A stretch of 50,655 nt of DNA from a virus (IMGVR_UViG_3300037459_000262:1-50655), one strand, 5' to 3'. Shown: positions 1,034 to 25,366, numbered from the stretch's first letter. The notes: generated by a model from the letters alone, not told the origin. Program-made: numbers and translations.

Positions 1034-1044
1034 TAAGGGTATTT
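1034..1044 (-). promoter_or_regulatory. Late promoter box for the 1..1011 gene
   Basis: On the minus strand this reads AAATACCCTTA, followed by TTCC. The CC pair is 28 nt from the ATG, so the box sits where an archaeal BRE/TATA element lies when transcript and start codon coincide (leaderless mRNA). The same box recurs before almost all virion genes. Confidence 0.8.
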
Positions 1045-1056
1045 TTAATTAATTAA

Positions 1057-4000
1057 TCACACGAAGCGTTTGACACTGGTGATAGTTCTTGTGAATCCAC
1101 CTTCTCCTGTTCCAGGTGATGTTAAATTATACTGAATATGCTTCACTACAAGCTTTATTTTTTTGGCACTAGGATTAGTTGAATCATCTTGATCATTTAC
1201 TAGTTGGTCATTTTCAAAAAAGTATCCATCACCAAACTTTAGTGAAAACAGCTCACCGCCAGCAGTCTCTATCTGATATTGTTTTAGCTGGAATTGTTCT
1301 TTTTCAAGTTCTGTCTGTGCATCATTTTGGAGTTGTTTAAATGAAATAATATGTGGTCTTTTTCTAAACTGTGCTTCGAGATTTATGTCAGTATCAGGCT
1401 GACGTGCAATAGCTAAAAGTGGTTTTGTAAAATGAAAATCATCAAGTGTTAGTGCAAGTGTTCCTCCAAAAAGTTTAGCAAGTGAACTATTATTAATATC
1501 AAAATCTAATGCATTACCAGACAAATCAGGTGCAAACCGTCCAAACTCATCATAAAAATTCTGAAGCTGAAATCCTACGAACTGGATTTCTCGAAATGCA
1601 AACCTGTTTACAATTTCAAGCTCCTGTGGTAAAATCAATGAGGCAATATTGTTTAGTTGAAGATCAAAGAATCTAGGCTTTTTTCCTCTGTAAATCTTAA
1701 ATGACGAAAACGGAATCTTTACTGGAAAAAATACATCAACAAAGGGAATCTCTACGTCATAAAATACTGTATTGTCATATCTATCAATCATCCAGATTCT
1801 AACTGTAGTGATTCCGTCAAGTTTTGCATTACTCAGAGTTAGATTTGTAATTTTAATAATTACTGCAATCTCCTGCAGCTGTCCCAAGTCCTCGCTTTCT
1901 GTTTGGTTAAATCCTCTAGTTCCCCTACTAGTCCATGTCATGTTTTGCGTATCAAGAAAGGATGGCTGCAAACTATCTTCACCAAATGCTCCTGATGGAG
2001 TAGCAGTTCCAAAGACATTTCCTACAGTAACTGATGGTGCACCAAAATTATTTGGAGAAAATGGAATACGAAATACAGCCCACGCTCCTTTTTTGAAAAA
2101 ATCACCTACTGGAGTAGTAGAACCAGATAAAAAACGGGTTAGAAAATTACTTCCCATTTCATACTTGAATTCTAAAGCAGAAAAGATGTTTGTAGTAAAT
2201 GGACTTCCATCTTTTGTTACATCTGGATGGTTAGTACTGTCAGTCTCAGCAGGTTTTGGATCAAAGGATTCAGATGATTTTATGCTAGTATATTGATGTA
2301 AACAGTCAACTGCTAAATCACTAGTAACTAAACTCCATGTATCATCGTCATCAGTATTCCACTGATAAATTAAACCATCATCAATTACTACTACCTGCAT
2401 ATTATCAATATCAGTTCCAGTATCTGCTGGTCTGTACTTTACAATCCATTCTTCGCCACTCCATTCAGCAATATTATTTAGAAATGGAATTCCGTTTGAA
2501 TCATTTCCTGTAAATCCCGTTGCAACTCCATCAATTAGCATTCGTCTGCCAACAGGAAACTGGTTCTGCTGTCCTGAATACGCCCATCTATCAGCAGCTA
2601 CTGCTATTGATTCACCACTAGTTACAGATGCAGTTGCAGTAGCTGTTGTTCCAAATGAAGGGGAAGCTATTGTAACAGTTGGTGCAGATGTGTAACTAGA
2701 ACCGCCATCATCTACAGTAATAATAGATACTGCTCCATTAGATAAAATTGCACTTGCAGTAGCTCCATTTCCACCACCTCCACTAAGATTTACAGATGGT
2801 GTAGATGTGTAACCAGAACCGCCATCATCCACAGTAATGAGAATTACACGACCGCCACCATCACTAATCCTAAAGTCTACCCAAGTTCTAAGAAACTTGG
2901 CATCAATTGTATTATCCAATACAACAATGTTAATGTCAAACATTGTAGCACCAAGTTTTCCGTTATCAGTGTCTGGAATAATAGTTTCATTACCGATGAA
3001 CTTTACCTCACTAGGATTAGCACCACAGTTTGCCCATTCCTTTACTTTGTCATCAGTCCATTCTGAATATTGAATTGTATCTCCAAACTCATCGGACATG
3101 TCGATTTGTTCCCAGTTTGTAGGATCACTTGGAGGATTTGGAAATGGAGGATTTGGAGGACTTGTAATATTATTTTTTGCTCGAAAGTGTTTGTTATCTA
3201 GATATTTTACAAGAGAGTCTTTTAGATAGAAAAGCTGATCATTCCATTGTGGTCTAAAAATAAATTGATCAACACCACTTGCATATTTTGAGTGACCTGT
3301 CGGTAGAGAGCCGTGAGTCTGTGATCCCCATGCTGCTACTTGTGTTGCAGTAGCTGCTGCTATTCCTACATCAGTAGAGCCAATATTGACATTAAAAACT
3401 ACATCACCGCTTTCTGGTTGTATAAGAGTTGGAAGTGATGCATCATCATCAAGATCAATACTTCTACCTCCTTGCGAAAATAATGCAATATCTAACTGGT
3501 TAACACTTGGAGTTTCAAAACCCAATTCAAAATAATCCAGTACTCCGCCAAAAGCAACAGAGGAACCAAGCTTGTCAAGCATTTGGTTCCAGCGATTATA
3601 TCCAGTATCCTCAACTAGTCCATATTCATAATGATTAACTGTAAAACTTGGAAAACCATTTCCAACGCCACTTGATTGAAGATAACCAAGTGTATGTTTG
3701 GTTAATACTGGTTGCAGAGAATTTCTGTTGTCATTGTAACTAACTCCAATTTCTCGTGCAACACGAAACGCATCAGCAAAGAAAAATCTTCCTGCAAAAT
3801 TTATTCGCTGTGTATGATATTCTATACCAATTAGATTTAGCTCTAAAATTGTTCCATCAGTTTTGGTCTGTGATGGAACTACAAGTGGATTAAACTCAAA
3901 GAATCGGTTATATGTATTTCCTGCCAAGTCTTCTGCTTGGACTCTAAATCTGTCAAATTGAACAAGTACAGGCTGTGAGCCTTTGGTTGTAATGAAATTA

Positions 4001-4167
4001 CCAAATACTCCTGAAAGCTTTAAGATACATTCGTTTACCTGTCCAGAACCTGTATCAGTAAATGAGATTCCTAGTACTTCTTCTGTAATGTCTAGTGTTG
4101 TAGTGTAATCACTTGATGCAGAAAAATATGTTACAAAGAAATTTTTGATATTGCCAATATTTGCCAA
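1057..4167 (-). CDS. Large tail/baseplate hub-like protein, 1036 aa
   Basis: The longest gene of the window. It starts with TTG, chosen because the late promoter box lies 29 nt upstream. The N-terminal ~230 residues have the look of a tail hub or minor tail protein (alternating beta strands, [16 protein letters not shown]). Around residues 445-520 there are two copies of a Gly-rich module ([16 protein letters not shown] and [16 protein letters not shown]) that also occurs in the 8981 and 14915 genes. The C-terminal part is beta-rich and ends in a charged stretch with [13 protein letters not shown]. It lies between the tail genes and a fibre gene, which fits a baseplate or tail-tip component. 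The function is inferred from size, position and composition, not from a recognised catalytic domain. Confidence 0.7.
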
Positions 4168-4190
4168 TAAAGTTTAGGTGGTTTTTGAAA

Positions 4191-4201
4191 TAAGGGTATT
4201 T
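4191..4201 (-). promoter_or_regulatory. Late promoter box for the 1057..4167 gene
   Basis: Minus-strand AAATACCCTTA followed by TTTC, with the CC pair 29 nt from the TTG start. It belongs to the virion-gene promoter series. Confidence 0.8.
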
Positions 4202-4209
4202 TTCTTTCT

Positions 4210-4773
4210 CTATGTACCAAGACCTGATGGATCACCACTAAACCTCAAAGTCAGAACAACTCCTGCCTTTTGTTTGTATTCACCATCTCTAATTATTCTG
4301 GCTTGAGCCAAAACATATCCAAAATTCAGAGCAGGCGTAATATTGAATTGTGGCATGTCATCCATTCTCAAACCAAATCTACCTTTGGGAAAACCATCCT
4401 GTAGTGTCTTGTCTTCTTGTAGCCAAGTTACTAGATTAGCCAGATCTCCATTAGTTAATCGAGTTTGCCTTAGCTGTCCTGTAATTTGAACATCTATTCC
4501 CTGCAATCCCATATCTTGGACTTCGTTTATTTGTCCTGCAACTCTTGGGTTTTCAGGTGTAGAATTTCTATAGTTTACTTCAGTGTTAAACACAAAACTT
4601 CCAGTTGCAATAACGGGTTCTGAGTTGAATTTGATGATATTTACTGCAATAGCATCTTCTTCATCTGCTCCCTGAGTTGTTGTTGCCCTCCAGATTGCTG
4701 TATTATCTACCAGGATTAAACACGTTCCTTCTTCTTGGGTTGCCTTGCGAATCAGTAACTGAACCGCTTGCAT
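4210..4773 (-). CDS. Tail protein, about 187 aa
   Basis: The frame is open from 4863, but the ATG at 4773 (MQAVQLLIRKATQEEG) is the most likely start, because the longer version would overlap the preceding gene by 160 bp. Even so, about 70 bp overlap that gene, and no clear ribosome-binding site is visible. The protein is beta-rich (VIATGSFVFNTEVNY, DVQITGQLRQTRLTNG) and ends in GVVLTLRFSGDPSG. It sits between the tape-measure-like gene and the hub-like gene, a place where tailed viruses keep distal tail components. I do not recognise a named family. Coding is secure because the frame is long and the composition normal; the start is uncertain. Confidence 0.7.
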   Translation of the reverse strand: MQAVQLLIRKATQEEGTCLILVDNTAIWRATTTQGADEEDAIAVNIIKFNSEPVIATGSFVFNTEVNYRNSTPENPRVAGQINEVQDMGLQGIDVQITGQLRQTRLTNGDLANLVTWLQEDKTLQDGFPKGRFGLRMDDMPQFNITPALNFGYVLAQARIIRDGEYKQKAGVVLTLRFSGDPSGLGT

Positions 4774-5569
4774 TTTGACTACGATAAATTTCTTGGCTGT
4801 TACGATAAGGTGAGGACTGTAAAATTCCTGTAGTACCACTAGAGAATTCAAAGAGATTTCCATTTACCTGTGATTGACCACCACGTAATCCTGCCATTGT
4901 AGTTACTCGAATCTCTTGATATCCGTGTCGAAGTTCTTCTTGAAGTTGTCTTTCATAAAAATTCATTGTCTCAATTCTTGCTATCCTCTTGAATCGTCTG
5001 TCAAGTGCTCTTCCTGGCTGCATGAACTGGTCTATTACAAACAAAACAGTCTCATAAATCAGAATTGCAAGTACTGCATAGATTCCACCTTTGGCAGCTG
5101 CCTTTCCATATTTTGATAAGAGTTTAGTTACACCAGCTACAATAAATGCAGAAGGATTTGTTGCAAGTCTAATTAGATTTGCACTTGCTTGGGATGATAA
5201 TCTGTTTATTATTCCAACAGGACCTTTCATGAATTTCTTTTGTTGTAAAGTAACTTTTTCTAATTGTAATTTTTTTAGTATTACTTTAGGGTCTTTACTG
5301 TCTGCACCTTTGATTTCTTCTTTGAGTTTTTTTATGAATTTTTTTAGATACCGAGTTTCTATTTGCTCAAATGTAGGAACACCAAAATCAGCACCAGCAA
5401 CTTTTTCTTTTTTCTTTTTTGGTTCTTCTTCTTTTATTGTAACTTCTTTTTTTACTCTAATATCATCTGCTCTTGCCATCTCTGATGAGAGATTTTCAAT
5501 AAATTGCTTGTCTTGCGGATCAACATCAATTTTTATTCTGATGTGAACAGAGTCTTCCCTATCTGCCAA
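4703..5569 (-). CDS. Tape-measure-like membrane-segment protein, 288 aa
   Basis: It starts with TTG inside the end of the previous gene (11-nt overlap), so the two are translationally coupled. The N-terminal third is highly charged (EEEPKKKKEKV) and helical. One strongly hydrophobic segment lies near residues 160-182 (IYAVLAILIYETVLFVIDQF), followed by a basic helix and a Gly/Ser/Asn-rich tail. Helical build, one hydrophobic segment and position just after the tail completion gene suggest a short tail tape measure or tail-length protein. It is short for a tape measure, which would imply a short tail. A different membrane-interacting tail protein is possible. Confidence 0.55.
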   Translation of the reverse strand: MADREDSVHIRIKIDVDPQDKQFIENLSSEMARADDIRVKKEVTIKEEEPKKKKEKVAGADFGVPTFEQIETRYLKKFIKKLKEEIKGADSKDPKVILKKLQLEKVTLQQKKFMKGPVGIINRLSSQASANLIRLATNPSAFIVAGVTKLLSKYGKAAAKGGIYAVLAILIYETVLFVIDQFMQPGRALDRRFKRIARIETMNFYERQLQEELRHGYQEIRVTTMAGLRGGQSQVNGNLFEFSSGTTGILQSSPYRNSQEIYRSQNASGSVTDSQGNPRRRNVFNPGR

Positions 5570-6161
5570 AGAGCATACTTCTCCCTAACTCGCCTTCAAG
5601 TTCTTCTACAAGTTTTTTCTTAAACTCTGGATATCCTTTTCTAAATCCTTCAGAAAATACATGTCTTGCTTGTATTCCACTAATCCAGTGACCTTTAGAA
5701 AAAAATTTAATACCATTTTGTATCCACATTAATGCTTTTTTTCGTCTAGGAAGTATTGGATGGTCAGGTGTTCCCTCCTCAAACCATTCATCAAGTGGTT
5801 CTAGTTTTTCTCCCTTAAAGTCAACCCAAATCCAGAGATAGGTCCCATCAAAGTCAGATTGGATACTCTGAATGTATCGCTTTGGCATCTTTTTTTTGAG
5901 TGCTTCTTGATGGATTGCCTCTAGGAGTGTCTGGTTTGCAATGCTGAGAATTTTATAATTAATGAATTCCTGTATCCTAAATGATAAAGACTGGGTTCTT
6001 AATGCAGACAGGTAGAGATTACCGCTTGGGGCAAGAGTTGTTGTACTGCGTTTGGTGGGAGTTGTACTAGAAAATGTTTTGCTAAACATTTCAGGATCTT
6101 CAATTGCAAGTGGTGGTAAATCATCAAGATCATCATCCCGAAATGGAGAAAACGCTCCCAT
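5559..6161 (-). CDS. Tail completion / HK97 gp10-like protein, 200 aa
   Basis: ATG start. The central part reads WVDFKGEKLEPLDEWFEEGTP and continues with HPILPRRKKALMW, then a Gly/Ser-rich turn, SGIQARHVFSEGF and a helical C-terminus. This arrangement (W-V-DF, a GTPDHPI-type loop, W..G, then H at the start of the last helix) is familiar from head-tail joining or tail completion proteins of the HK97-gp10 type. The first 60 residues are acidic and low in order. It is separated by 3 bp from the upstream tail-tube-like gene and probably shares its transcript. Family assignment is from motif memory and position. Confidence 0.6.
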   Translation of the reverse strand: MGAFSPFRDDDLDDLPPLAIEDPEMFSKTFSSTTPTKRSTTTLAPSGNLYLSALRTQSLSFRIQEFINYKILSIANQTLLEAIHQEALKKKMPKRYIQSIQSDFDGTYLWIWVDFKGEKLEPLDEWFEEGTPDHPILPRRKKALMWIQNGIKFFSKGHWISGIQARHVFSEGFRKGYPEFKKKLVEELEGELGRSMLFGR

Positions 6162-6164
6162 CTC

Positions 6165-6608
6165 TCAAGCCACCAGAATTGTATCCGTAGTTATTCGGAA
6201 TCTGACACGAAATATCAGACCACCTTCAATTGGTTTTATTATGTTAAAGTCAGGAAGTTCTGCTGTTACTGTCATTGTGACATTATCTCCACCTCCTCGT
6301 GGCTCTGCAATTATGTTAAAAACATTGGATGGAAGATTACCATCAGTATCAAGTACAGTTAGTAAGTTAAAACTATTAATTTCTGAAGTGGTTAATAGTA
6401 ATGTGGCATCAAAATAGTGGTCACCTTTTCCATAATAGTAGATTACTCCCCCATCAGTTGTTGGCTCTCTTGCTTCAGGTCTACCCAGATGAAAGTCTAG
6501 ATCCTGTAACATGACATATCTGCCAAGAGTAATACCGTCTTGTGTAGAACTATCTAACTCAAGTTTTAGATTCTGTGCATTTACAAGATCACCAATAACA
6601 CCAACCAT
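6165..6608 (-). CDS. Probable major tail (tube) protein, 147 aa
   Basis: ATG start with the late promoter 28 nt upstream. This compact beta-rich protein contains GGVIYYYGKGDHYFDATLLL and the phrase GGDNVTMTVTAELPDFN, and ends in RVRFRITTDTILVA. Size, fold type and location before the completion and tape-measure-like genes fit a tail tube subunit. It heads the transcript that includes the next three genes. The identification is by context; a small baseplate protein would look similar. Confidence 0.5.
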   Translation of the reverse strand: MVGVIGDLVNAQNLKLELDSSTQDGITLGRYVMLQDLDFHLGRPEAREPTTDGGVIYYYGKGDHYFDATLLLTTSEINSFNLLTVLDTDGNLPSNVFNIIAEPRGGGDNVTMTVTAELPDFNIIKPIEGGLIFRVRFRITTDTILVA

Positions 6609-6630
6609 GAATTTTAGGTGATTTTTGAAA

Positions 6631-6641
6631 TAAGGGTATTT
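6631..6641 (-). promoter_or_regulatory. Late promoter box for the 6165..6608 operon
   Basis: Minus-strand AAATACCCTTA followed by TTTC, CC pair 28 nt from the ATG. The intergenic sequence before this start is nearly the same as before the 4167 start (flanking TTTCAAAAA and CACCTAAA). Confidence 0.8.
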
Positions 6642-6654
6642 TGTTTACAGTCTT

Positions 6655-8943
6655 TTAGTCTACTCTTCCAATCTCTAACCATGTAGTCTCTGGTGTGAAA
6701 ACAAAAGTTACACTAGTCCCAACTGGTTCATTAGCAAAACCTGTTACTAGATCTAGTGGTGCAAATCCACTACCAGGCATCCCTCCATTTGTAAAACTTG
6801 TACTACCAGTATCCACTATTATTGTAACTTTAGAACCTACTTGCCATCCTGCTGTTGCAATGCCCACAAGAGTTTCAGTAGATTGAAGATAAAATGTATT
6901 TCCGTCTGTTAAAGTAAGGTCACCTCCAGCTACAACAGTTACATCATCTGATGTTTCCTGAAATCTCCCAGTTACGATGACATCTTTGAGTAAGTTGATA
7001 GTTCCTATTCCTTTTGTGTCAATATCCAAAGAAACATCAGTATTATCACCGCTTGACTTTATTATTGGTGCATTACCAGTTGCTTCATTTGAGATAGTTA
7101 TTTCATTTATTGCACTGACAACTGCACTAGGAAATAGAATTAACTCAGCTCCATTTGAATCATTGATACTGCTCGCACTTGTAATTCGAGGAGCAGTTAG
7201 TGTCTTGTTTGTGAGTGTCTGGGTGCCAGCAAGTGTTACAACATTACTATCAGTTTGAAATGCTGGAGCATTACCAGAACCATTACTTGTCAATACTTCT
7301 CCAGCAGTTCCAACTCCAGTATTTCCAATTGCACTTGTACCATTACCAAACAAAATACCATTTTCAGTTAATGTTATTCTACCCGTACCTCCGTTTTCAA
7401 CTGGAAGTGCATCTGTAACTGCATCAGTTAATGAAATTTGCCCACCACCAGCTGTGTCAGAGTGATCATGGTTTGCAGCAGAAAAGCTTGCTATAATCGG
7501 AGTAGTTAATGTTGGCGATAGATTTAACACAACAGAACCCGAACCAGTAGAAGTAGTAACACCAGTACCACCAAATAGAACTGCAATATTTCCAGCTTGC
7601 CATGTACCACTAGTTACAGTTCCAAGTAGAGTAATTGCAGAAGATGAGCCAACATCTAAAGTTGCAGGATCAGTGGTTCCATCACCAATTAGTATTTCAC
7701 CATCTCCAAGTACAGCAAATGCAGTAATTGCACTTGTACCACTACCAAGTAAAATACCGCCATCAGTTAGAGTAGTAACACCAGTACCACCAAATGGAAC
7801 TGCAATGGTATCAGCTTGCCATTCTCCTGTAGTAACAGTACCGAGTGTAACAATACTTGATTGTCCTGGATATGTTGAAGAGATGCTAGCAGAAATTTCT
7901 GCTTCGTCTGTATCATCTTCTACTAGAAAATTAATGTTATTAGCGGTATCAAGAAAATTAAGTGCTGTTTTATTTACTGATACATTAGATCCTTCTAGTC
8001 TTACAATCCTTAATGTACCAGAAGTTGCTGGACTTTGAAATGTTGGAGCATTATCAGAACCATTACTAGTTAATACTTGATCAGCAGTTCCCTGAGAAGT
8101 AGTAGCAGCTACAAAAGAAGAATTAAATTTTAGAAAATCATTATCAACAACTTTATCAACTTCAAGTAAGAGATCATCACTATTACCACTATTTCTCCAT
8201 CCAATAACATCTGTATTTGTCAATCTAAGAATTCCTGCACTTGAAGGAGAACTATTTTCTGATACAAAAAATAGAGATTTAGTTCCTTGTGCAAAATCAT
8301 TTAGTACACTAAGAAGTGGAATGTTTGATGAATCAGCCAAGTTAGATGATGATCCAACGACTTTGTTAGCACCAACACTACCTAATGTTAGACCTGTAAT
8401 AATATTAGTGGCAACGTCAAGCGATTTGTTTAGTAAAGTTTGAGAAAGTGACAAGTCAACTATCTCTCTTGTGGCAGGAGTGCTGTCACCATACTGAAGT
8501 GTGTCTGAACTTCTAAAGATATCACCTGCTACTACTGGTGCTGGAACTTGATTGTTTATATTAATTCCAGCATTATCATCATCAGCTACAAATGACTGCT
8601 TGTTTCCTGCCCCATAGGTATTTGCATCATCAGTAGTTACAACAACTGAGTCCAAAGTAAATGTAATATCATCATCATTTTGTGTAAGATTAATTCTATT
8701 TGATTCACCTATTAATTTTCTAAATTGTAAGATTGTTACGGCTTTCTCAGCAAAGACTTCTGAACCTGGAATACCAAGATTTGTTCCATCACTGACCCCT
8801 CCTGTTCCACCAGGGAGATTGCTTAACTTGAGTCGTTTATTTGTAGTATCAGGGTTTGAATCTGTTGAATCTAATATTAGTATTTCATCATCGTTACTAG
8901 CTTGTTCTGCCTTTTCAGCTTTTTCGCTCCAAGGAAGTGACAT
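6655..8943 (-). CDS. Tail fibre protein with GGTGVTT repeats, 762 aa
   Basis: ATG start, late promoter 28 nt upstream. Near residues 365-485 the protein has tandem repeats of the form LGTVTTGEWQADTIAVPFGG followed by TGVTTLTDGGILLG, a pattern well known from phage tail fibres and receptor-binding proteins. A weaker copy (LPVENGGTGRITLTENGILF) and several LTSNGSGNAPAFQ-like stretches follow. The C-terminus resembles a beta-sandwich. At DNA level the repeats stay very similar (see 7545-7625 and 7770-7850), which gives room for recombination. It probably recognises the host surface or forms a spike. Confidence 0.8.
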   Translation of the reverse strand: MSLPWSEKAEKAEQASNDDEILILDSTDSNPDTTNKRLKLSNLPGGTGGVSDGTNLGIPGSEVFAEKAVTILQFRKLIGESNRINLTQNDDDITFTLDSVVVTTDDANTYGAGNKQSFVADDDNAGININNQVPAPVVAGDIFRSSDTLQYGDSTPATREIVDLSLSQTLLNKSLDVATNIITGLTLGSVGANKVVGSSSNLADSSNIPLLSVLNDFAQGTKSLFFVSENSSPSSAGILRLTNTDVIGWRNSGNSDDLLLEVDKVVDNDFLKFNSSFVAATTSQGTADQVLTSNGSDNAPTFQSPATSGTLRIVRLEGSNVSVNKTALNFLDTANNINFLVEDDTDEAEISASISSTYPGQSSIVTLGTVTTGEWQADTIAVPFGGTGVTTLTDGGILLGSGTSAITAFAVLGDGEILIGDGTTDPATLDVGSSSAITLLGTVTSGTWQAGNIAVLFGGTGVTTSTGSGSVVLNLSPTLTTPIIASFSAANHDHSDTAGGGQISLTDAVTDALPVENGGTGRITLTENGILFGNGTSAIGNTGVGTAGEVLTSNGSGNAPAFQTDSNVVTLAGTQTLTNKTLTAPRITSASSINDSNGAELILFPSAVVSAINEITISNEATGNAPIIKSSGDNTDVSLDIDTKGIGTINLLKDVIVTGRFQETSDDVTVVAGGDLTLTDGNTFYLQSTETLVGIATAGWQVGSKVTIIVDTGSTSFTNGGMPGSGFAPLDLVTGFANEPVGTSVTFVFTPETTWLEIGRVD
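7545..7850 (-). repeat. Direct DNA repeats inside the tail fibre gene
   Basis: Stretches at about 7545-7625 and 7770-7850 read almost the same (both contain GTAGTAACACCAGTACCACC followed by AAAT and a further ~45 matching positions). They encode the GGTGVTT-type protein repeats. Confidence 0.7.
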
Positions 8944-8965: not shown

Positions 8966-8976
8966 TAAGGGTATTT
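8966..8976 (-). promoter_or_regulatory. Late promoter box for the 6655..8943 gene
   Basis: Minus-strand AAATACCCTTA followed by TTCC, CC pair 28 nt from the ATG. Confidence 0.8.
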
Positions 8977-10960: not shown

Positions 10961-10971
10961 TAAGGGTATTT
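10961..10971 (-). promoter_or_regulatory. Late promoter box for the 10540..10938 gene
   Basis: Minus-strand AAATACCCTTA followed by ACC; CC pair 28 nt from the GTG. Confidence 0.8.
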
Positions 10972-13435: not shown

Positions 13436-13445
13436 TAAAGGTATT
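13436..13445 (-). promoter_or_regulatory. Late promoter box for the 13281..13412 gene
   Basis: Minus-strand AATACCTTTAT, CC pair 29 nt from the GTG. The 40 bp around it are almost the same as those upstream of 15781, including the first three codons (Val-Thr-Ser). Confidence 0.75.
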
Positions 13446-13485
13446 AACGAATTTAAGAATTGAATTTATTTAAAATTTATACGAT

Positions 13486-13527: not shown

Positions 13528-13625
13528 ACAAAAAATTCTATTTTTGGAATAAGTATTTTGGATTTAAAAAACATTTAAGATTTTTATTTTTTTAATTCAT
13601 CTAAAGTATTTTTTTTAAAGTCATC

Positions 13626-15804: not shown

Positions 15805-15815
15805 TAAAGGTATTT
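15805..15815 (-). promoter_or_regulatory. Late promoter box for the 14915..15781 operon
   Basis: Minus-strand AAATACCTTTA followed by TTTTA; CC pair 29 nt from the GTG. It overlaps the stop codon of the zinc-ribbon gene upstream. Confidence 0.8.
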
Positions 15816-16153: not shown

Positions 16154-17365
16154 CTAAGTTACTTCGTATGAAGTAATCTTAAAAGCACCTTCAGGATGTG
16201 CTTGTTTGATGTCGATTCTTACTACAAGATCACTCTGATAAAGACCCCCAACTGACAAATCGAAATTTTCTATCGTTAAATCTTCCCTTAATCCCGTTAC
16301 AAGGGCAATGTCTCTCTTTGTAATCATTACAGTTCCTGCTTCTATCTGGGGAGTTTCCCAGACTGCTCTTAGACCAAGTGATTGTGCTAATCCTGAATTA
16401 TTAATTACATCAGTGTCATCAGTTGGTCCTAACTCAAATCTGTTAAAGAACGGATAGAAACCGCCAGTAGATGCAGTCTTTACAGTTAGTGCTGCATCAG
16501 ATGGATTCATAAACATTGTATCTGCTCGATTCCGTAAAGTCCCTGGGAACCTTGAACGAATAACTTCAACTAGAGCTTCTAGTTCTTTTTGAACTGGAGT
16601 ATCATTATGAAGTGCAGCTTTAGTTGCAGTGTTTGATGGTCCAGTTGTTTGTGAAACTAGTGTATCAATAATTTCTTTACCTATCATAAAATAAAATTCG
16701 TTACCTGCGTTCTTTAGCGATTGTTCAACGCTCAAAAAATTATTATCTTTTACGTCATTTCTGTTTACAGATATAGTTCCACGAAATGAATTGTTTGTAC
16801 CACTGGTATCTAATTCTACAGTTTCAATTTTTCCACCTATAGCTGGAGGTACACCGCCAGCTTCTTTGTAGATGATTAGTCCTTTCTGATCAGTTGGTGA
16901 ACCGCCAACCGTATCTGTATATTTTGTAATTGGGACATTAACTTTTGGAGAATCCATATCTATCAATCTTGAATATTGCTTCCAATCTGACCATGGTTCT
17001 GCTCCCTCGAGTATCTCATCTGCAATTTTTAATGCAGACAATGAGTTTGGAACTGAAACTGTTTCTCGTAGTTCCTTTCCTGCAATTCTCATGTTACCTT
17101 TGGCCTCATCACCTATTCTGATACCATAGCGATGCTTCCAGATTGTAGGTAAGTTTGGATTTAGTCTACCTTCTTCAAATCCATTAGGGTGAGTTCTATC
17201 AAAGAATACTGAAAGTGGTGTTTCTCTGATTGGTCTAAATATATCAAATGCATATCCTGCTCTTTGTTGTGCCTCTGCACTAGCAACTAGTGCCTCTTGG
17301 ACATGTGCCATTTCTTTTAATTGTAATATGGATTGCCTGTTGTGTTTTGGACGAGAAGTAGCCAT
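16154..17365 (-). CDS. Major capsid protein (HK97 fold), 403 aa
   Basis: ATG start, 2 bp after the decoration-protein gene. The helical N-terminus (KHNRQSILQLKEMAHVQEAL) is followed by an alpha/beta body with NNSFRGTISVNRNDVKDNNF and a long spine-helix segment (SVEQSLKNAGNEFYFMIGKE), then IRSRFPGTLRNRADTMFMNP and a beta C-terminus (SVGGLYQSDLVVRIDIKQAH). Length, order of elements and position between decoration/scaffold and connector genes fit an HK97-type capsid subunit. No cleavable propeptide is evident by eye, although a protease-like domain is encoded at 19516. It has no promoter box of its own and is read with the gene at 17368. Confidence 0.8.
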   Translation of the reverse strand: MATSRPKHNRQSILQLKEMAHVQEALVASAEAQQRAGYAFDIFRPIRETPLSVFFDRTHPNGFEEGRLNPNLPTIWKHRYGIRIGDEAKGNMRIAGKELRETVSVPNSLSALKIADEILEGAEPWSDWKQYSRLIDMDSPKVNVPITKYTDTVGGSPTDQKGLIIYKEAGGVPPAIGGKIETVELDTSGTNNSFRGTISVNRNDVKDNNFLSVEQSLKNAGNEFYFMIGKEIIDTLVSQTTGPSNTATKAALHNDTPVQKELEALVEVIRSRFPGTLRNRADTMFMNPSDAALTVKTASTGGFYPFFNRFELGPTDDTDVINNSGLAQSLGLRAVWETPQIEAGTVMITKRDIALVTGLREDLTIENFDLSVGGLYQSDLVVRIDIKQAHPEGAFKITSYEVT

Positions 17366-17921: not shown

Positions 17922-17931
17922 TAAAGGTATT
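17922..17931 (-). promoter_or_regulatory. Late promoter box for the capsid operon
   Basis: Minus-strand AATACCTTTAA, CC pair 29 nt from the TTG at 17898. Confidence 0.8.
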
Positions 17932-17970
17932 AAGACATACAAATATTATTTTACAAAAAAATATTTTATT

Positions 17971-18019
17971 TTTTGCAAAATACTTTAATGTAAATGTTGT
18001 AAATTATTTGTTACAAAAA
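17971..18019. repeat. AT-rich repeat, copy 1 (downstream of scaffold gene)
   Basis: About 48 bp (GCAAAATACTTTAATGTAAA and on) are repeated with few changes at 19356-19407, so the two copies flank the scaffold-like gene. The rest of 17932-18130 is AT-rich without an open frame. Confidence 0.6.
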
Positions 18020-18130
18020 ATATTATTACAATAAAAAATTATACATATAACTTTTCAAATAAATTACACAATAATTACAAAACAAAGTATAAAATAAAAT
18101 TATAATTTTTTAAAAATATCTAATTAATTA

Positions 18131-19282
18131 TTAATTATACATTGGATTCTTTTGACTGTTTAACATTTTATCCATGTTTTCAATTTCTGATCTTGCGATT
18201 GCAACCTTGTTTCTCTGATAGTTTGGAAGTGGTTGCACTCCAACAAATGTTTGACTTTGTTGATGAGCTTCTGCAAATCCTTGTAGTGGGGTACTAGGTT
18301 CTGTTGTTTCTCTAAACTTTGCAGTTGCGTTTTGTCGCAATGTATCCAAGTCAAGTTTCATAGAACCATTATTAGTTACTGCTTCTCTTATGTCTACTGA
18401 AAGTTTTTTAATTGCATTTTTTTGATTTACAAATGCCTCTCTTTGTTTTAGAATTGCATCTCTTTGTTGGGAAATAACTCTATTTAGTGGTATTACAACT
18501 TTGTTGTGATATTTTCTCATTTCTTGCTGGACTGTATACTGCATTTGTCTCATCATTTGGTTAGTATCCATTGGTGGTGGTGCTGGCATTCCTGCACCCA
18601 TTTCTCTTGCAATATCAGGCATCAAACCAGCTCCTGCACCCATGTCACCACCCATATTGCCATTGCCGCCCATGTTACCGCCCATATTGCCATTGCCGCC
18701 CATGTTACCGCCCATATTCTGTATAGGTGGCAATCCAGGCACAATCATTCCATTAGTCTCACTCCACTGGTTTACAGTACCATCCATGTCCTGCATTGGT
18801 TTCTCACCATTAGTGGTGTCAACTCCTTGAGCTGGATATGGAGCAACATTATCAGTTGATTGCTCAGAACCGTCTTCTCTTGGTCCGTTATTGTGATTAT
18901 CTAAAACTTCTTCATGTAATTTGTGATCATCTTTATCATCATCTTGCTCATGTAATTTTTTGAAAACATCATCGCCTTCATGTTCTTCATGTAATTTTTT
19001 TTCATTGTTATCATCTTCTTCTTCTTTTAATTTTGGTGCACTAATTCCATCATCTACATCAGGTCCAAGACCAGGATCAGCTTGGTTTTCATCTTCAAGT
19101 TCTTTGATGGCTGACTCCATAAATGAATAAGCATGATTTCTTTGTTGAGGATCAGCGGAGCTTGATAATGCAAGTGCAGTCTCTACTAATTTTTTAACAG
19201 CAGGACCAGCTCCCAATTTAGTTAGAATAGGATCAGCTTGTCCCATAGTAGCACATTCTTGTAATTTTTTAATGAGTCGCAA
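18131..19282 (-). CDS. Scaffold-like protein with GGNMGGN repeats, 383 aa
   Basis: TTG start, late promoter CC pair 29 nt upstream. The order is: a helical N-terminus (~1-60), an acidic stretch with repeated KLHEE/HE motifs (~75-130), a Pro/Gly linker, then repeats of GGNMGGNGNMGGN near residues 195-220, and a coiled coil (~265-310, VVIPLNRVISQQRDAILKQR) before a polar C-terminus. Low complexity, acidity and a C-terminal coiled coil just upstream of the capsid operon suggest a capsid scaffolding protein. The role is inferred. Confidence 0.55.
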   Translation of the reverse strand: MRLIKKLQECATMGQADPILTKLGAGPAVKKLVETALALSSSADPQQRNHAYSFMESAIKELEDENQADPGLGPDVDDGISAPKLKEEEDDNNEKKLHEEHEGDDVFKKLHEQDDDKDDHKLHEEVLDNHNNGPREDGSEQSTDNVAPYPAQGVDTTNGEKPMQDMDGTVNQWSETNGMIVPGLPPIQNMGGNMGGNGNMGGNMGGNGNMGGDMGAGAGLMPDIAREMGAGMPAPPPMDTNQMMRQMQYTVQQEMRKYHNKVVIPLNRVISQQRDAILKQREAFVNQKNAIKKLSVDIREAVTNNGSMKLDLDTLRQNATAKFRETTEPSTPLQGFAEAHQQSQTFVGVQPLPNYQRNKVAIARSEIENMDKMLNSQKNPMYN

Positions 19283-19305: not shown

Positions 19306-19316
19306 TAAGGGTATTT
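19306..19316 (-). promoter_or_regulatory. Late promoter box for the scaffold-like gene
   Basis: Minus-strand AAATACCCTTA followed by AACT; CC pair 29 nt from the TTG. Confidence 0.8.
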
Positions 19317-19515: not shown

Positions 19516-21450
19516 CTAAAGTTTTTGGATCAAAGTAAATTTAATTCCTGGTTCCGCAGATGGTATAAAGTGTCCATCCCAATACATCCCTCTAGGATCA
19601 GTTATAACAAATGTCATTCCAATCCCATCAATCTCACCTAACACCACACCCTTTGGAACCAAACACAATTCACAATTATCAGATGTACAGTTATGATCAC
19701 ATGGCTCTATGCTTTCACTTCTGGGCATTCCTCCATTAATTGATACTGCGGTAATTATTTCATCATCAATTGCATTGTTAATTGCGTTATCTTTGACTAT
19801 AACTAACATCTGTATCTCTTTTCTATACTTGTCAAACTCTGCATCTAAAATAGTTGCATCTACTTCAAATTCTGGTTGATGATTAATGTCCATATTTTTT
19901 CCAATTGCAGTCCTTGTCATAGAGTTTAGTTCCTCAGCAGATAGTTTTCGTCTGTATGGTTCACCTTCACTGGTATGATCTGTGATTGTCTCCCCTGCTG
20001 CTCGTATCAGATACAGCACTCCTCCAGAATCATATGCTAACTCTCGTGCCTTTGAAATGTAATCGGTAGTCAACCAATCAAATTGTGAGCGAAGATTTGC
20101 AATGCTTTCTTGCAAAGACTTTCTTGGCAACTCCAAATGAATTGGTGGTATCTGTATTGGAGGGATTTGTATTGGCGGTATTTGTTGACATGCACAAGTA
20201 TTTTCTTTTAGTGGGTTTTTCTTTGTAGTTTTTTTTAAAAGTTTGCCGTCTTTTTTTACTTTGTGTAGTGTTCCACCCTTTGCAGCACTACTAATGTGTG
20301 ATTCAATTTTGTGAATCTCTGATTCCTCTTTTCTTGAAAGTGAATCTGCCGTACCAGTATAATTTTTTTCTACATTCCATTTGCATCTACAATTAGGATG
20401 TCTAGTTGTATATCCTAAATTCTCACTTGGTAGTACAGGTCGCATATGTACCTCAACTAGATTGAAAACTTTGCCATCTGCATTTCTGCATTCAACACAA
20501 GTCTTATCATCAAGCTTTGCAGTGTATTTGGCAAAAATCTCTAGTGATTCATCTGGCTTTAAACTATCTAGAATTTTATCAATTCCTACTGCACCGCCAA
20601 GTAGTAATGCCCACTTTAACAACAAATCACGAAAATTTTTTTTCTTTTTCTTCTTATCTTCTTTTTTTGCCTCAGCTAAAGGATTGATACCACTTGGAGG
20701 AATTATAATATCTGGAATTTTTAATGGATACATTTGAGAGTCTTCAATGTTGTATCGCCATTCAGGAATTGCTTTAGCTACATTGAATCCATGTTCGTTG
20801 TGCATTGATGGTTCTGAATTTAACTGAGATGCAGTTGCACTCCAGTTTGTGTTGTCACCTGGATATGGTGGGTTTAGTACATCATAAACATTTGATAGTG
20901 AACCAACACTGTTAGGATCTGGGCTAAAAAATGATTGGTATGGTTGAGTTGATGAACCAATTCCATATGGTGATCGATTTGGTGTTGGGTATGGTTGTAC
21001 GTCTTTGGGTAGTCCTTGGAAATATGTAGTTGGTTCTCCACTGTCTGGAGTTATTACATTGTTAACTATACCAGCTGCATCAACTCCAGTTACTCCTCCA
21101 GGCCAAGGTTGTGCATATGGCGGTTCACGTTCTGAGAAATATGCAATAACTGCTCTGTGAGCTTCTTCTTCTGGTATTCCTCGAGCTAATAGTTCATGCT
21201 CCATCTGGATTGCTTTTTGTGCAACCTCGCCAGTGGTAGTCTCTACCATAAATCCTGGCTTGTAGTTTACCTCTAGCTTGTTGTATTTTGGATCAACTTC
21301 AGTATCAATTGGTTGAGGATGCCCATACGCATGTAAATCGCATGTGTCTTTAGCTTTAATCTGACCCTTTACTAGCTCACATAGTCCTCCTGCAACAAAG
21401 TGTTTGCAGTTTCCGCATAGTGCGGATCTAGTATCTTGGTTCTTTGACAT
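19516..21450 (-). CDS. MuF-like head morphogenesis protein fused to protease-like domain, 644 aa
   Basis: ATG start; overlaps the 21428 gene by 23 bp. The N-terminal Cys cluster (ALCGNCKHFVAGGLCELVKG, then TCDLH) could bind metal. Residues ~315-375 hold the gpF/SPP1-gp7 signature DDKTCVECRNADGKVF and later HPNCRCKW. Residues ~440-640 look like a phage prohead protease of the XkdF type: NHQPEFEVDATILDAEFDKY, VSINGGMPRS, and GEIDGIGMTFVITDPRG. A second Cys/His cluster (CDHNCTSDNCELC) interrupts this part. The catalytic residues could not be assigned with certainty. MuF-like proteins act with the portal at the capsid vertex; fusion to a protease would couple assembly and maturation. Confidence 0.7.
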   Translation of the reverse strand: MSKNQDTRSALCGNCKHFVAGGLCELVKGQIKAKDTCDLHAYGHPQPIDTEVDPKYNKLEVNYKPGFMVETTTGEVAQKAIQMEHELLARGIPEEEAHRAVIAYFSEREPPYAQPWPGGVTGVDAAGIVNNVITPDSGEPTTYFQGLPKDVQPYPTPNRSPYGIGSSTQPYQSFFSPDPNSVGSLSNVYDVLNPPYPGDNTNWSATASQLNSEPSMHNEHGFNVAKAIPEWRYNIEDSQMYPLKIPDIIIPPSGINPLAEAKKEDKKKKKKNFRDLLLKWALLLGGAVGIDKILDSLKPDESLEIFAKYTAKLDDKTCVECRNADGKVFNLVEVHMRPVLPSENLGYTTRHPNCRCKWNVEKNYTGTADSLSRKEESEIHKIESHISSAAKGGTLHKVKKDGKLLKKTTKKNPLKENTCACQQIPPIQIPPIQIPPIHLELPRKSLQESIANLRSQFDWLTTDYISKARELAYDSGGVLYLIRAAGETITDHTSEGEPYRRKLSAEELNSMTRTAIGKNMDINHQPEFEVDATILDAEFDKYRKEIQMLVIVKDNAINNAIDDEIITAVSINGGMPRSESIEPCDHNCTSDNCELCLVPKGVVLGEIDGIGMTFVITDPRGMYWDGHFIPSAEPGIKFTLIQKL

Positions 21451-21829
21451 TTCGCCTCAACTGAGTGTCAAGAATTTTTTTCCACAAATCAGTAGTCATG
21501 TTATTTGTGTTAGAATTGCTGTCAATTTTTCCCACTTGTCCACCAATTCCTTTTGTAGTTTTGTGGATGTCAGGTTCTACTGGTCTATTTGTAATTGGAG
21601 GATTAGAAAGTGGAACCTGTCTGTTTGCATTTACTCTTTTATCGTTTTTGTTTTTTACTAGAAATTCATGATCCCCTACATGTTCTTTGATTTTAGCTTC
21701 TGCAATTTCTGCCTTGATGTTTTTAGTATCTGTTTCTTTGCCAAGTTTTGCGTTACAGACTGCCCAAAGATTATCAACTCCTTTTTGTCCTTTGACTTTG
21801 GCTACACAATCATCTAATTTTTGTGGCAC
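21428..21829 (-). CDS. Small head-associated protein, 133 aa
   Basis: GTG start, late promoter CC pair 28 nt upstream. The N-terminus LDDCVAKVKGQKGVDNLWAV, then CNAKLG, is a short motif often found at the start of phage head proteins and peptidase fusions. The middle is charged and helical, and the end (TTDLWKKILDTQLRRNVKEP) overlaps the MuF-like gene. It is probably a partner of that protein. No function assigned. Confidence 0.6.
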   Translation of the reverse strand: MPQKLDDCVAKVKGQKGVDNLWAVCNAKLGKETDTKNIKAEIAEAKIKEHVGDHEFLVKNKNDKRVNANRQVPLSNPPITNRPVEPDIHKTTKGIGGQVGKIDSNSNTNNMTTDLWKKILDTQLRRNVKEPRY

Positions 21830-21851
21830 AAAGATTAGTTTGTTTTTAGGT

Positions 21852-21862
21852 TAAAGGTATTT
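21852..21862 (-). promoter_or_regulatory. Late promoter box for the 21428..21829 / MuF operon
   Basis: Minus-strand AAATACCTTTA followed by ACC; CC pair 28 nt from the GTG. It lies just downstream of the 43-residue gene. Confidence 0.8.
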
Positions 21863-21868
21863 TTCTGC

Positions 21869-22000
21869 TTATCTGTTTTCCTCTAATGTTCTAGTAGAGA
21901 TGTAATTTATTGGGATTTGTGGTTGTTGTGGTACAATATTATCATTATTATTTATTGTAATATCAATAAAGTTTTCATAAAGATTAATTTTAATATTCAA
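21869..22000 (-). CDS. Small hypothetical protein, 43 aa
   Basis: The TTG start overlaps the TGA stop of the upstream gene (TTGA). The protein reads MNIKINLYENFIDITINNND and continues with VPQQPQIPINYIST. It is the third gene of the portal transcript. Coding is supported by the tight overlap and by the absence of any other use of this space; no family recognised. Confidence 0.5.
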   Translation of the reverse strand: MNIKINLYENFIDITINNNDNIVPQQPQIPINYISTRTLEENR

Positions 22001-22236
22001 TCCCACATGTGCTCCATCTGATTTTTATATCTGGAATACTTTTGATGCCATCTTGGTTCATATTCAAAATGCGGATACGGCATCCAGTCTTTGTCAGGTG
22101 TTTTAACTACACACCAGTTAGAGTTAGTTAGTGTTGCATTTGTAGCTGTACTTGAAAAAGAAAAGATACCATCACTAGTTGATGCTGTGGTATTATTCCA
22201 CCAATTAAAATTGTCATTTGTAAAATCACTACTCAT
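21997..22236 (-). CDS. Small Trp/Tyr-rich protein, 79 aa
   Basis: The frame is open from 22320, but the ATG at 22236 (MSSDFTNDNFNWWNNTTAST) overlaps the portal stop by 8 nt and is the likely start. The C-terminal part is aromatic and basic (PYPHFEYEPRWHQKYSRYKN). It follows the portal gene directly, so a minor head or connector role is possible. No family recognised. Confidence 0.6.
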   Translation of the reverse strand: MSSDFTNDNFNWWNNTTASTSDGIFSFSSTATNATLTNSNWCVVKTPDKDWMPYPHFEYEPRWHQKYSRYKNQMEHMWD

Positions 22237-23923
22237 AGTCTCGTCCCCATCCCCAATCTTGTGATTGATTTGATTGTCTGAAATTTGTTGGAACAAATGG
22301 ATTGCCACTTCCTCTAACATCTCGCATCATAGAGTCATAAATTGGATTGTCCATCGGTGGACTGCCCATAACTTGATTATTAAAAACAGGACCGCCTCCA
22401 ATATCAGCAGTTGGTAGATATGTTCCATCTGCTGTTTTATTTGGCGGTGTAACTATTCCTCCTTGCTCTATTCCTCCTTGGTTTAGTGTTGCATTGCCAA
22501 ATGCTAACTGTCCATGCGGATCATTATACACATTATCAATTGTGACTAGGTAATCCTCGTCAATTGGAAGTCCTGCCTGCTCAAATAATTTGAGAATTTG
22601 TTTAGGATCTTTTGGCATTGGTGATTGCAGGTATAAATCAATTAGCTTTATCATGTCAGCTACTGCTACATCTTTTTTCTCTACTTGTCCAAAGTTCATA
22701 TCAAATCGTGCTAAATGCCAAGGAACTGGAATCATTCCACCATAGTAATTAACATCAAAGAATGGATGTGTATCATACCAAGGCTTGAATAGTAATTCAT
22801 TTAGCTGCTCCCTTACTGAAATTGGAAATGCCGTTAATCCCAACTCATCTAAAAGAGCTGCACGTTCAGCGTTTGCAAATGTATGAGTTGATACTCCAGC
22901 TTGTTTTCCTCTAAAGTCATTTAGTGCTTTGAATAATGGTCCTTGAGTAATATCTGCGAACTGACTTGGATTAAAATTCCTAGCCTGTGATCCTAATTCT
23001 TTTATCTCAACGTTTGTTCCAGAAATAATGTCTTGTCCAATTTGTGCAGACTCTATGTTTGCTTGTAGTGCTGCTCTTTGATCAGCTGATGCACCATCTG
23101 CAATCCAAACATTTCTACTTATGTAACGCTGTTCTGCCATTTGCATTTGAAATTGTGTGGAATACTTTCTGTCAAGCATTGATGGTAATGTAACATCAAC
23201 TGAATCCTCACCATTTAGTGGCATTGTAAATTCACGAGTTGATGTTACTGACACACCAAAGCCTGTACCAAATGGTGATGCGTTAACTGGATTCCATTTG
23301 AAATGCATTACCTCGCCAACATTATGGTACCCTTGATATTCTGGACCTCGGAATTCTAATTTGTATGGCACACGTTGCCTATCAACCCATATTCTTTGAA
23401 ACGATGATATTGGAATATGCATAAGATCTGAGAAATGCTCAACGTTACGAATTCCCATTCTAGGTTTCCAAATAGAATTTCCATACCATAACATTTCCTT
23501 TACTAGTTCTGTATCAAATGTATCAAAGCGAAGGTTTGCAGTAAAATCCTCCATGTACTCTATGAAACTTTCTGAATCTCCTTTGATGTAGTGTTGACCA
23601 CCTGTAACTTTGGATGCTAAATCATTAATTGCAAGCTGTACATCCTCATCTTGTTGTAATGCAACAGCTTGAACATCAAATCTCACGCTAGGTACAAAAA
23701 AAGTTTTTGACGTATAACCTTCACGAGAATATGCACCTACTGTAGAAATTTCAGGTCCCCAAACTGGCTGAGAAAGACCTGGCACCATTTCAGATAACAG
23801 TGTACTATTCATTGTATCTTTGACTAGATTCAGATTCAGCGACCTTGTGGGATGTCTGGCTACATATTCCTCACTGGTAAGAATCTTTGCTAAACCGTTT
23901 CGTAGTCTGGTACCAAATCCCAT
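22229..23923 (-). CDS. Portal protein, 564 aa
   Basis: ATG start, late promoter CC pair 28 nt upstream. Features of phage portals: an N-terminal arm, QALQQDEDVQLAINDLASKV-like helix early on, then YGNSIWKPRMGIRNVEHFSD, followed by PISSFQRIWVDRQRVPYKLE and VMHFKWNPVNASPFGTG. A long helical stem region follows, and a Gly/Asn/Pro-rich tail ends in WGWGRDYE. The portal forms the ring at the capsid vertex through which DNA is packaged by the terminase encoded at 25688. Confidence 0.85.
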   Translation of the reverse strand: MGFGTRLRNGLAKILTSEEYVARHPTRSLNLNLVKDTMNSTLLSEMVPGLSQPVWGPEISTVGAYSREGYTSKTFFVPSVRFDVQAVALQQDEDVQLAINDLASKVTGGQHYIKGDSESFIEYMEDFTANLRFDTFDTELVKEMLWYGNSIWKPRMGIRNVEHFSDLMHIPISSFQRIWVDRQRVPYKLEFRGPEYQGYHNVGEVMHFKWNPVNASPFGTGFGVSVTSTREFTMPLNGEDSVDVTLPSMLDRKYSTQFQMQMAEQRYISRNVWIADGASADQRAALQANIESAQIGQDIISGTNVEIKELGSQARNFNPSQFADITQGPLFKALNDFRGKQAGVSTHTFANAERAALLDELGLTAFPISVREQLNELLFKPWYDTHPFFDVNYYGGMIPVPWHLARFDMNFGQVEKKDVAVADMIKLIDLYLQSPMPKDPKQILKLFEQAGLPIDEDYLVTIDNVYNDPHGQLAFGNATLNQGGIEQGGIVTPPNKTADGTYLPTADIGGGPVFNNQVMGSPPMDNPIYDSMMRDVRGSGNPFVPTNFRQSNQSQDWGWGRDYE

Positions 23924-23945
23924 AAAAAAAAGCTGTTTTATAGAA

Positions 23946-23956
23946 TAAGGGTATTT
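23946..23956 (-). promoter_or_regulatory. Late promoter box for the portal operon
   Basis: Minus-strand AAATACCCTTA followed by TTCT; CC pair 28 nt from the ATG. It starts at the end of the NHL gene. Confidence 0.8.
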
Positions 23957-24898
23957 TTACGGAGAACCAAAGTTTACCTCAAAAGTAAGAGCAGCAGCAA
24001 TATTAGAATATGCTTCAACTCGATTATTGAGTGTATTTGCTGCAAGAACATAGTTACTTGTATCTTGAAAGGAAGATACAGATTCAGGATAATAAAGATC
24101 CCCAGGTCCAGTTCCAGGCGATGTGTTTGTAGTGTTTGCAATTGTATCAGTAGCTACAGTTTTTAGAATATTATTTCTTGTATCTGCAAATGCGGTAGTG
24201 GCATTACCAGTGAGAATACCATGTCCACTTCCTGGGAAAAACAAATCAGTTCCAGTAGTTCCAGGTGCTCCAAATTGAGCAAGAAAAGTCGTAGCTGCTG
24301 TATCATATCTACTAATCACACCATTAAAAGAATCAGTAACCATAAAGAAATTATTTGTAGCCTCAAAAATTACACCATGAGGTCTGTTAAAAGCTAAAGG
24401 ATTAGGAGTGTCTAATTCTGCTGGAGCACTAGGAGTATCACCAACAGTATATCTTACAGCTCTGTGATTTAATTCATCAGCAATAACTAAAATAGAATTA
24501 TCAGTTGCAATTCCTGCTGGATGATAAAAGTCATTAATACCAGAACCACCTTCTCCAACTGAACCTGAATCAATAAATTCACCACTGGAAGCAGTTAATG
24601 TTCTAATTCTGTTATGAAATGTATCAGTTACAACTAGTCTAGAGTTTTCAAAGACAATTCCTGTAGGACGATACAATGAATTATCAGTTGAACCACCGTC
24701 CCCAATAGGACCACCTTCACCAGAAGTGCCATCAGAGTTACTTCCCCAACTACCATCTAGAACAAAATCAAAATTTGAAGCAGTGTAGTCCCATTTTGAA
24801 ATTCTGTGATTAAACTGCTCCACTACAAAGACACTTTTATTAGCAACATCAAAGGCAACATCAGTCGGTCTATACATTTTTCCAGGATCTAAAACCAT
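23957..24898 (-). CDS. NHL-repeat beta-propeller protein, 313 aa
   Basis: The frame is open from 24919, but the ATG at 24898 (MVLDPGKMYRPTDVAF) is preferred because the promoter CC pair is then 28 nt upstream, as in its neighbours. Five to six NHL blades are visible, each with a YRPTGIVF- or YHPAGIAT-like strand followed by LVVTDTFHNRIRTL- or VFVVEQFNHRISKW-like strands, so a six-bladed propeller is likely. NHL propellers bind protein, RNA or glycan partners. Between portal and terminase it could be a receptor-binding or capsid surface protein. No signal peptide or nuclease motif seen. Confidence 0.8.
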   Translation of the reverse strand: MVLDPGKMYRPTDVAFDVANKSVFVVEQFNHRISKWDYTASNFDFVLDGSWGSNSDGTSGEGGPIGDGGSTDNSLYRPTGIVFENSRLVVTDTFHNRIRTLTASSGEFIDSGSVGEGGSGINDFYHPAGIATDNSILVIADELNHRAVRYTVGDTPSAPAELDTPNPLAFNRPHGVIFEATNNFFMVTDSFNGVISRYDTAATTFLAQFGAPGTTGTDLFFPGSGHGILTGNATTAFADTRNNILKTVATDTIANTTNTSPGTGPGDLYYPESVSSFQDTSNYVLAANTLNNRVEAYSNIAAALTFEVNFGSP

Positions 24899-24920
24899 AC
24901 TAAAAAATTGTTTTCTCAAT

Positions 24921-24930
24921 TAAAGGTATT
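24921..24930 (-). promoter_or_regulatory. Late promoter box for the NHL gene
   Basis: Minus-strand AATACCTTTAA; CC pair 28 nt from the ATG at 24898. This spacing decides the start. Confidence 0.8.
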
Positions 24931-24940
24931 ATTAATATTA

Positions 24941-25189
24941 TTAACTAGTGGGCATTTCTGCTATGGAAAATGGAGTATCAGTATAATTTTGTTCCATAGT
25001 TCTTGCTTTACGGACTCCGTGATTTTTTGTATTTTTATAAAATTGAGGATGTAACTTTCTTGCACACCCGAAACACAACTGCCACTTGGTCCAATTGTCA
25101 CGCATTTGTGTCGAACGACTTCTGTGATAACATCCAGTTCCATTAGGGTATTTTGGTGTACGTGCTCTATGACCTAAGCATGTTGCCAA
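24941..25189 (-). CDS. Small Cys/basic protein, 82 aa
   Basis: TTG start at 25189 (MATCLGHRARTPKYPNGTGC). Cys4, Cys20 and a later CFGC pair could form a metal site; the sequence is strongly basic. It is the first gene of the minus-strand block and has no clear late box, though GTATTAAT lies upstream. A DNA- or RNA-binding protein is a possibility. No family recognised. Confidence 0.55.
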   Translation of the reverse strand: MATCLGHRARTPKYPNGTGCYHRSRSTQMRDNWTKWQLCFGCARKLHPQFYKNTKNHGVRKARTMEQNYTDTPFSIAEMPTS

Positions 25190-25316
25190 TTATTTTTTTC
25201 TCCATTGATTAATACCAATTTTTTTTTGGATTCATTGCATAAATATTTGTCCTTTAAGAAAACCTCAAGAAGATTAATCATAAAATTACTAGATGAAACT
25301 TTGACAAATTTTTATC

Positions 25317-25330
25317 TTCAATAATTATTG
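25317..25330. promoter_or_regulatory. Palindromic operator, copy 1
   Basis: TTCAATAATTATTG, a partial copy of the dyad GATTCAAT-N4-ATTGAATC. It lies in the divergent region between the minus-strand virion block and the terminase genes, about 26 bp upstream of the promoter box at 25356. Confidence 0.6.
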
Positions 25331-25355
25331 TATGTGTTAGTCATGTCATACCTAA

Positions 25356-25366
25356 AAATACCTTTA
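25356..25366 (+). promoter_or_regulatory. Late promoter box for the terminase operon
   Basis: AAATACCTTTA followed by ATCTG on the plus strand; CC pair 29 nt from the TTG at 25390. It is the only clear plus-strand copy of the late promoter, so packaging genes probably share timing with the virion block. Confidence 0.8.

Follow-up and report, generated by a model that had tools for sequence, protein, structure and literature searches.

The window, by which we mean the whole stretch of DNA analysed, is a linear virus contig of 50,655 bases that encodes tail and fibre proteins together with the following genes:

25688-27487, plus strand: terminase, preceded by the late box at 25356..25366
19516-21450, minus strand: Mu-F-like head gene
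16154-17365, minus strand: HK97-fold capsid protein, from a low-confidence model whose top structural hits are almost all capsids of the HK97 type
47527-48348, plus strand: archaeal sliding clamp (PCNA)

Because PCNA is encoded in the window and MCM and RadA are encoded in its relatives, we take it, on gene content, to be an archaeal tailed virus. The relatives are dozens of IMG/VR contigs, perhaps incomplete, gathered by terminase, portal-candidate and capsid searches. The closest matches among described phages were distant Bacillus-type terminases only, and the capsid protein and portal candidate had no match when searched against described phage records. Searches of genomic contigs with the terminase and PCNA found no relative, hence no provirus or host copy.

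Ahead of the virion and packaging genes lies a recurring element, the late box (AAATACCYTTA, with the core ATACCYTTA), given below with its spacing, which is counted from the first C of the box to the start codon:

1034..1044, minus strand: late box AAATACCCTTA, 28 nt before ATG 1011 of a fibre/depolymerase-like gene (337+ aa)
4191..4201, minus strand: late box, 29 nt before TTG 4167, the base at 28 being A; tail-region protein of 1036 aa
6631..6641, minus strand: late box, ATG 6608 at 28 nt
8966..8976, minus strand: late box, 28 nt before ATG 8943 of a 762-aa gene in a tail-fibre PHROG
10961..10971, minus strand: late box, 28 nt before GTG 10938 of a 132-aa gene that weakly matches a head-tail connector
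13436..13446, minus strand: late box TAATACCTTTA, 29 nt before GTG 13412, the base at 28 being A
13550..13560, minus strand: decayed box AAATACTTATT, 26 nt from GTG, before a 13-codon remnant
15805..15815, minus strand: late box, 29 nt before GTG 15781, the base at 28 being A
17922..17932, minus strand: late box, TTG 17898 at 29 nt; its operon includes the capsid gene
19306..19316, minus strand: late box, 29 nt before TTG 19282 of a 383-aa gene conserved as cluster 9
21852..21862, minus strand: late box, 28 nt before GTG 21829 and ahead of the Mu-F-like head gene
23946..23956, minus strand: late box, ATG 23923 at 28 nt; portal candidate of 564 aa
24921..24931, minus strand: late box, 28 nt before ATG 24898 of the gene for an NHL-repeat protein
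25356..25366, plus strand: late box, 29 nt before TTG 25390, the base at 28 being G; the 97-aa gene that starts here, a small terminase candidate, is followed by the terminase

The original prediction had placed all fourteen of these sites at 28-29 nt, which holds for the 13 intact ones but not for the copy at 13550, which is no longer an ATACCYTTA. That this copy is weaker and precedes a decayed gene was correctly foreseen, one C having been lost from it, and the predicted correction of a start to 24898 is likewise borne out. The gene led by the neighbouring box at 13436 is an intact 43-aa open reading frame (ORF; 13412-13281) and is not decayed.

All late boxes of the window fall within the virion and packaging module, at 1.0-25.4 kb, and the right half holds no promoter-like copy. 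The led operons contain the capsid, portal-candidate, terminase and tail genes, in agreement with the earlier proposal of a single regulon, and the same families are led across 27 contigs including the window: the portal candidate, the small gene before the terminase, the capsid operon and tail genes. Their gene content suggests late timing.

Two minor observations concern the surroundings of these sites. A second, degenerate late box within 17978-18131 lies about 50 nt from the promoter of the capsid operon and points in the opposite direction without an ORF; the same outward box occurs in relatives (G004 20941, G005 22277, L027 1336, L051 5619 and L053 5179), and a non-coding or antisense transcript is possible there. 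An 82-aa Cys/His protein (24941-25189, minus strand) adjoins the divergent late promoters, has its own Shine-Dalgarno leader and is kept in at least 16 contigs. We consider it a candidate regulator; to name it the late factor would be a guess, as it has no Pfam match and its model is too poor.

Genes of the right half either belong to operons with Shine-Dalgarno leaders (GGAGGCTTTAAACTAATG) or lie behind a repeated GTAACAYTTAA promoter, whose TATA position is normal provided that transcripts begin at the ATG:

44388..44427, plus strand: early-type promoter GTAACACTTTAATAA, upstream of ATG 44424, with further copies at 47492 and 50220

The three promoter regions are nearly identical (TTTTTATTCTTATAATGGGTAACACTTAAGTATAAA...), and the third has no long ORF, which suggests a duplication of the promoter together with the gene start.

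Spacing, start codons and the predicted transcript start

Exact AAATACCYTTA occurs ten times in the window, each time at a position named in the original prediction. The core ATACCYTTA, searched on both strands, occurs 15 times, and 14 of these copies stand 28 or 29 nt from an ATG, GTG or TTG; the remaining one (39096, minus strand) is not promoter-like. The start-codon search used a 50-aa ORF cut-off, so that the row at 13444, with its GTG at 29 nt and 43-aa ORF, was printed without a start. The chance of finding a start of at least 50 aa at 28/29 nt from a random position is p=0.011, and the probability of at least 13 such cases in 15 is 5e-24. A search allowing two mismatches showed no enrichment in the window (64 against 63.8); the signal therefore lies in the full motif with its fixed spacing, and not in motif frequency.

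The claim of fixed spacing gained further weight from the motif search in related viral genomes that had been suggested beforehand: in the 27 contigs (419,575 bases), 104 of 124 ATACCYTTA copies are exactly 28 or 29 nt from a start, orthologous sites among them not being independent, and eight permuted control patterns gave 0-1 copies at this spacing in the same contigs. Across 2.9 million IMG/VR viral contigs, the extended box with a spaced ATG matched 11 stretches, 10 of them within the family of the window. The one match outside it (L153) was dismissed as chance, as it lies within a coding ORF and leads 17 codons.

The choice between 28 and 29 nt follows the start codon. In 100 non-redundant sites picked by ATACCYTTA, ATG and GTG stand at 28 nt in 41 cases and at 29 nt in 13, and TTG at 28 nt in none and at 29 nt in 46 (Fisher 6e-17, with orthologous sites not independent). 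All 46 TTG sites have a purine at 28 and a pyrimidine at 27, a YR step that precedes TTG in 22% of cases in the background; the same step at -1/+1 is present at all ATG/GTG sites with 28-nt spacing. Among the 13 ATG/GTG starts at 29 nt, position 28 holds a purine in eight but not in the other five. Even within single gene families the start codon switches between ATG and TTG from virus to virus, and the spacing switches along with it.

The simplest cause of this rule would be a transcript start fixed at C+28 and restricted to purines, and it is the shift of spacing at TTG together with the YR step that places the start there. Shine-Dalgarno-like sites precede 1 of 95 led genes as against 21 of 58 other late genes (P=1.5e-9). 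Taken with the start at C+28, this implies that the first gene of each late operon would be translated from a leaderless mRNA, as the original prediction held, or from one with a 1-nt leader; many inner late genes appear, by their upstream sequences, to use Shine-Dalgarno sites. The fixed spacing, the start-site signature and the scarcity of Shine-Dalgarno sites before led genes all point to a promoter, the role first proposed for the box. The box is also a clean means of correcting start codons and of recognising members of this uncultured virus family.

Box anatomy and turnover between clades

Counted from the predicted start, the box spans -35 to -20. An AAWAA stretch at -35 to -31, with A at -32 in 94% of the 100 sites (a position outside the selecting pattern) and at -31 in 100%, is followed by the conserved T-30 A-29 C-28 C-27 Y-26 T-25 T-24 A-23 and then by AWTY; nearer the start come an A-rich stretch at -18 to -14 and the YR step at -1/+1. 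Archaeal promoters have a BRE near -33, an 8-bp TATA box near -27, an A/T-rich region at -10 and Y at -1 with R at +1 (PMC5316973). The late box does have an A-rich BRE near -33, whereas no canonical TATA box (TTWTAW-like) is centred near -27: the slot from -30 to -23 reads TACCTTTA in the 100 unique sites, which were selected by ATACCYTTA, and TTTAAT sits 3 nt nearer the start.

By this layout, the late box is best described as a non-canonical TATA-slot element joined to an A-rich part at the BRE position, in an archaeal architecture. The original prediction had seen ATACC as an extended BRE; its promoter role stands, but the CC pair falls at -28/-27, inside the TATA position and not upstream of it. 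TTTAAT at -26 to -21 could possibly be a shifted TATA box with ATACC as a BRE-like part; this is less likely, because it requires a TATA box displaced by 3 nt from its usual place towards the start. With the canonical promoter the late box shares the A-rich BRE part, an element in the TATA slot, the A/T-rich proximal tract and the YR initiator, and with canonical leaderless promoters a start at or adjoining the start codon (PMC5316973). It differs in having CC in the TATA slot, a near-invariant 9-mer, a restriction to virion genes and a restriction to one lineage.

In more distant relatives, orthologous virion genes carry different boxes at about the same position:

TGCATATAA: G009, L087
TAGTTCTCTTTA: L102/G027, L081
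TAACACTCAAATAAA: L091
TAACACTGATATAA: L107
ACACTTTTAA: L104/G028
AACACTTGTATA: L089, L090, L101, L103, L105
ACAGTTTTATCCTA: L093, L094, L096

For several outer clades, each label is based on two to four genes. Several of the clade boxes were recovered by unbiased 8-mer and 9-mer scans, made with no prior knowledge; in several short or outer-clade contigs these scans gave no clear box, and the labels there were assigned by eye. In a tree of the capsid protein with 37 rows, all but one of the box labels that occur in more than one row form a single clade each, and the 15 labels, assigned by eye, require 14 changes, the minimum. AATACCTTTAA is found in the clade of the window (100% support) and in a second group nearby, and either predates both groups or arose twice. 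The box of the window seems derived, because the outer clades carry boxes closer to the canonical promoter, such as TAACACTTTTAA.

Virus-specific promoter sequences have precedents in archaea. In SIRV1 and SIRV2, most genes have a GTC element downstream of a normal TATA box (Kessler 2004, as relayed in PMC5569661). The likeness lies in an archaeal viral promoter with a virus-specific cis element, and the difference in GTC being added to a normal TATA box, whereas here the core box itself is altered, in late genes only; at -22 to -17 of our 100 sites, directly 3' of the TATA slot, no GTC of the SIRV type appears as a consensus. Sulfolobus viruses have a conserved early promoter sequence before anti-defence genes, with a standard TATA/BRE core (PMC11065993). 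Like the late box, it is one sequence per temporal class per genome that differs between viruses, but it concerns the early class and a standard core, and here it is the virion class whose core has changed.

Possible readers of the late box

The box, its spacing, the deduced start site, the gene set and the turnover between clades can be read from sequence, and from them we infer a factor and late timing. In the mechanism that we propose, the late box would be the core promoter of virion and packaging genes in this archaeal tailed virus family, and transcription would start 28 nt past the first C, on the initial A or G of an ATG or GTG, or 1 nt ahead of a TTG. Host RNA polymerase would probably be directed to the box by a dedicated, fast-evolving factor, either viral or recruited by the virus and acting as a TBP/TFB-like protein or as an activator, that would co-evolve with the box. 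We postulate such a factor because CC occupies the TATA slot, early genes lack the box and each clade has its own box; the replacement of the box by a different one in each related virus lineage suggests a virus-specific switch for late genes. A more specific version, which we put forward tentatively as the weaker proposal, is that every clade has a late initiation factor of its own, an unrecognised TBP/TFB-like protein, either encoded or recruited by the virus, with a DNA specificity that changes along with the box. Searches found no TFB or TBP homologue in the virus records examined, which are perhaps incomplete and in which a divergent factor would be missed.

The main rival is an ordinary host promoter: TBP/TFB of each clade's host would prefer its box, and no viral factor would be needed. 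The near-canonical boxes of the outer clades agree with this, clade-bound boxes would also fit host-bound clades, and a host-wide box or a host-specific alternative TFB is possible. We nevertheless think it unlikely, as early genes of the same genome use TAACAYTTAA promoters or Shine-Dalgarno-led operons, the extended box occurs in no other IMG/VR viral family, and both TAGTTCTCTTTA and TACCTTTA are poor TATA boxes. Host TBP/TFB might instead bind TTTAAT as a shifted TATA box, with ATACC serving as the operator of a viral activator or repressor over the BRE. This would account for TTTAAT remaining AT-rich while the upstream half varies by clade, and the archaeal viral regulators F55 and C68 do bind over the BRE (PMC5569661); we find it distinctly improbable, since the TATA centre would be near -23 and not -27, the box shows no inverted repeat, unlike a dimeric operator, and the spacing between ATACC and TTTA is invariant in the main clade, a weak argument given that sites were selected by the full motif.

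Readers outside the archaeal machinery fare worse. That the motif is strong, uniform and found only in the late module recalls the late promoters of T4 and T7-like phages, as would be expected if a virus-encoded RNA polymerase or a bacterial-type sigma factor read the box, an explanation that we regard as very remote: neither gene was seen among the proteins scanned, the block from -35 to -20, the YR initiator and PCNA/MCM/RadA are archaeal features, and RNA polymerase genes are said to be absent from archaeal viruses (PMC5569661). An element acting in RNA, in translation or processing, would also be held at a fixed distance from the start codon; it is the least credible of these readings, as the spacing shift at TTG and the YR step are a start-site signature and led genes lack Shine-Dalgarno sequences.

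For a dedicated late factor, the nearest likeness in action is found in beta- and gamma-herpesviruses, whose late promoters have an altered TATA box read by a viral TBP mimic (PMC6541308, PMC7498053). There, an altered TATA box marks late genes and viral factors are required, as we propose here; the herpesviruses are, however, eukaryotic viruses with a viral TBP mimic, and the archaeal late-box factor is putative. If the more specific version, with a factor for each clade, is true, archaea would have their own equivalent of the herpesvirus late initiation complex, and the core promoter would have been rapidly replaced over a whole viral regulon. Late gene control is poorly known in archaeal tailed viruses, and here the regulon, its probable starts and its evolution emerge from the genomes themselves; the change of box from clade to clade at orthologous genes makes the question of co-evolution between factor and box testable.

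Other repeats in the window

Several further repeats are present in the right half. A palindrome like ATTCAATAATTATTGAAT lies about 40-60 nt 5' of several genes there (window 32758, 33111, 34044 and 27546) and also upstream of genes in relatives, and is possibly a middle-gene operator. At 28805-31161, an IS110-like gene (28805-29527, longer in relatives) is followed by about 30 TGACTCGTA-type repeats, one every ~36 nt, with 36 matches in the window against 5 expected. A scan of A4 members returned the TIGR-Tas RNA-guided endonuclease NF052498 at 7e-51 in one unspecified member, and the region is probably, judging from its gene and repeats, a TIGR-Tas locus. Lastly, an AT-rich tandem array of 31/62-nt units (AAAACAAAATTTTAGCTACTCATAAAAACCT) at 40330-40750 is possibly an origin or a second array.
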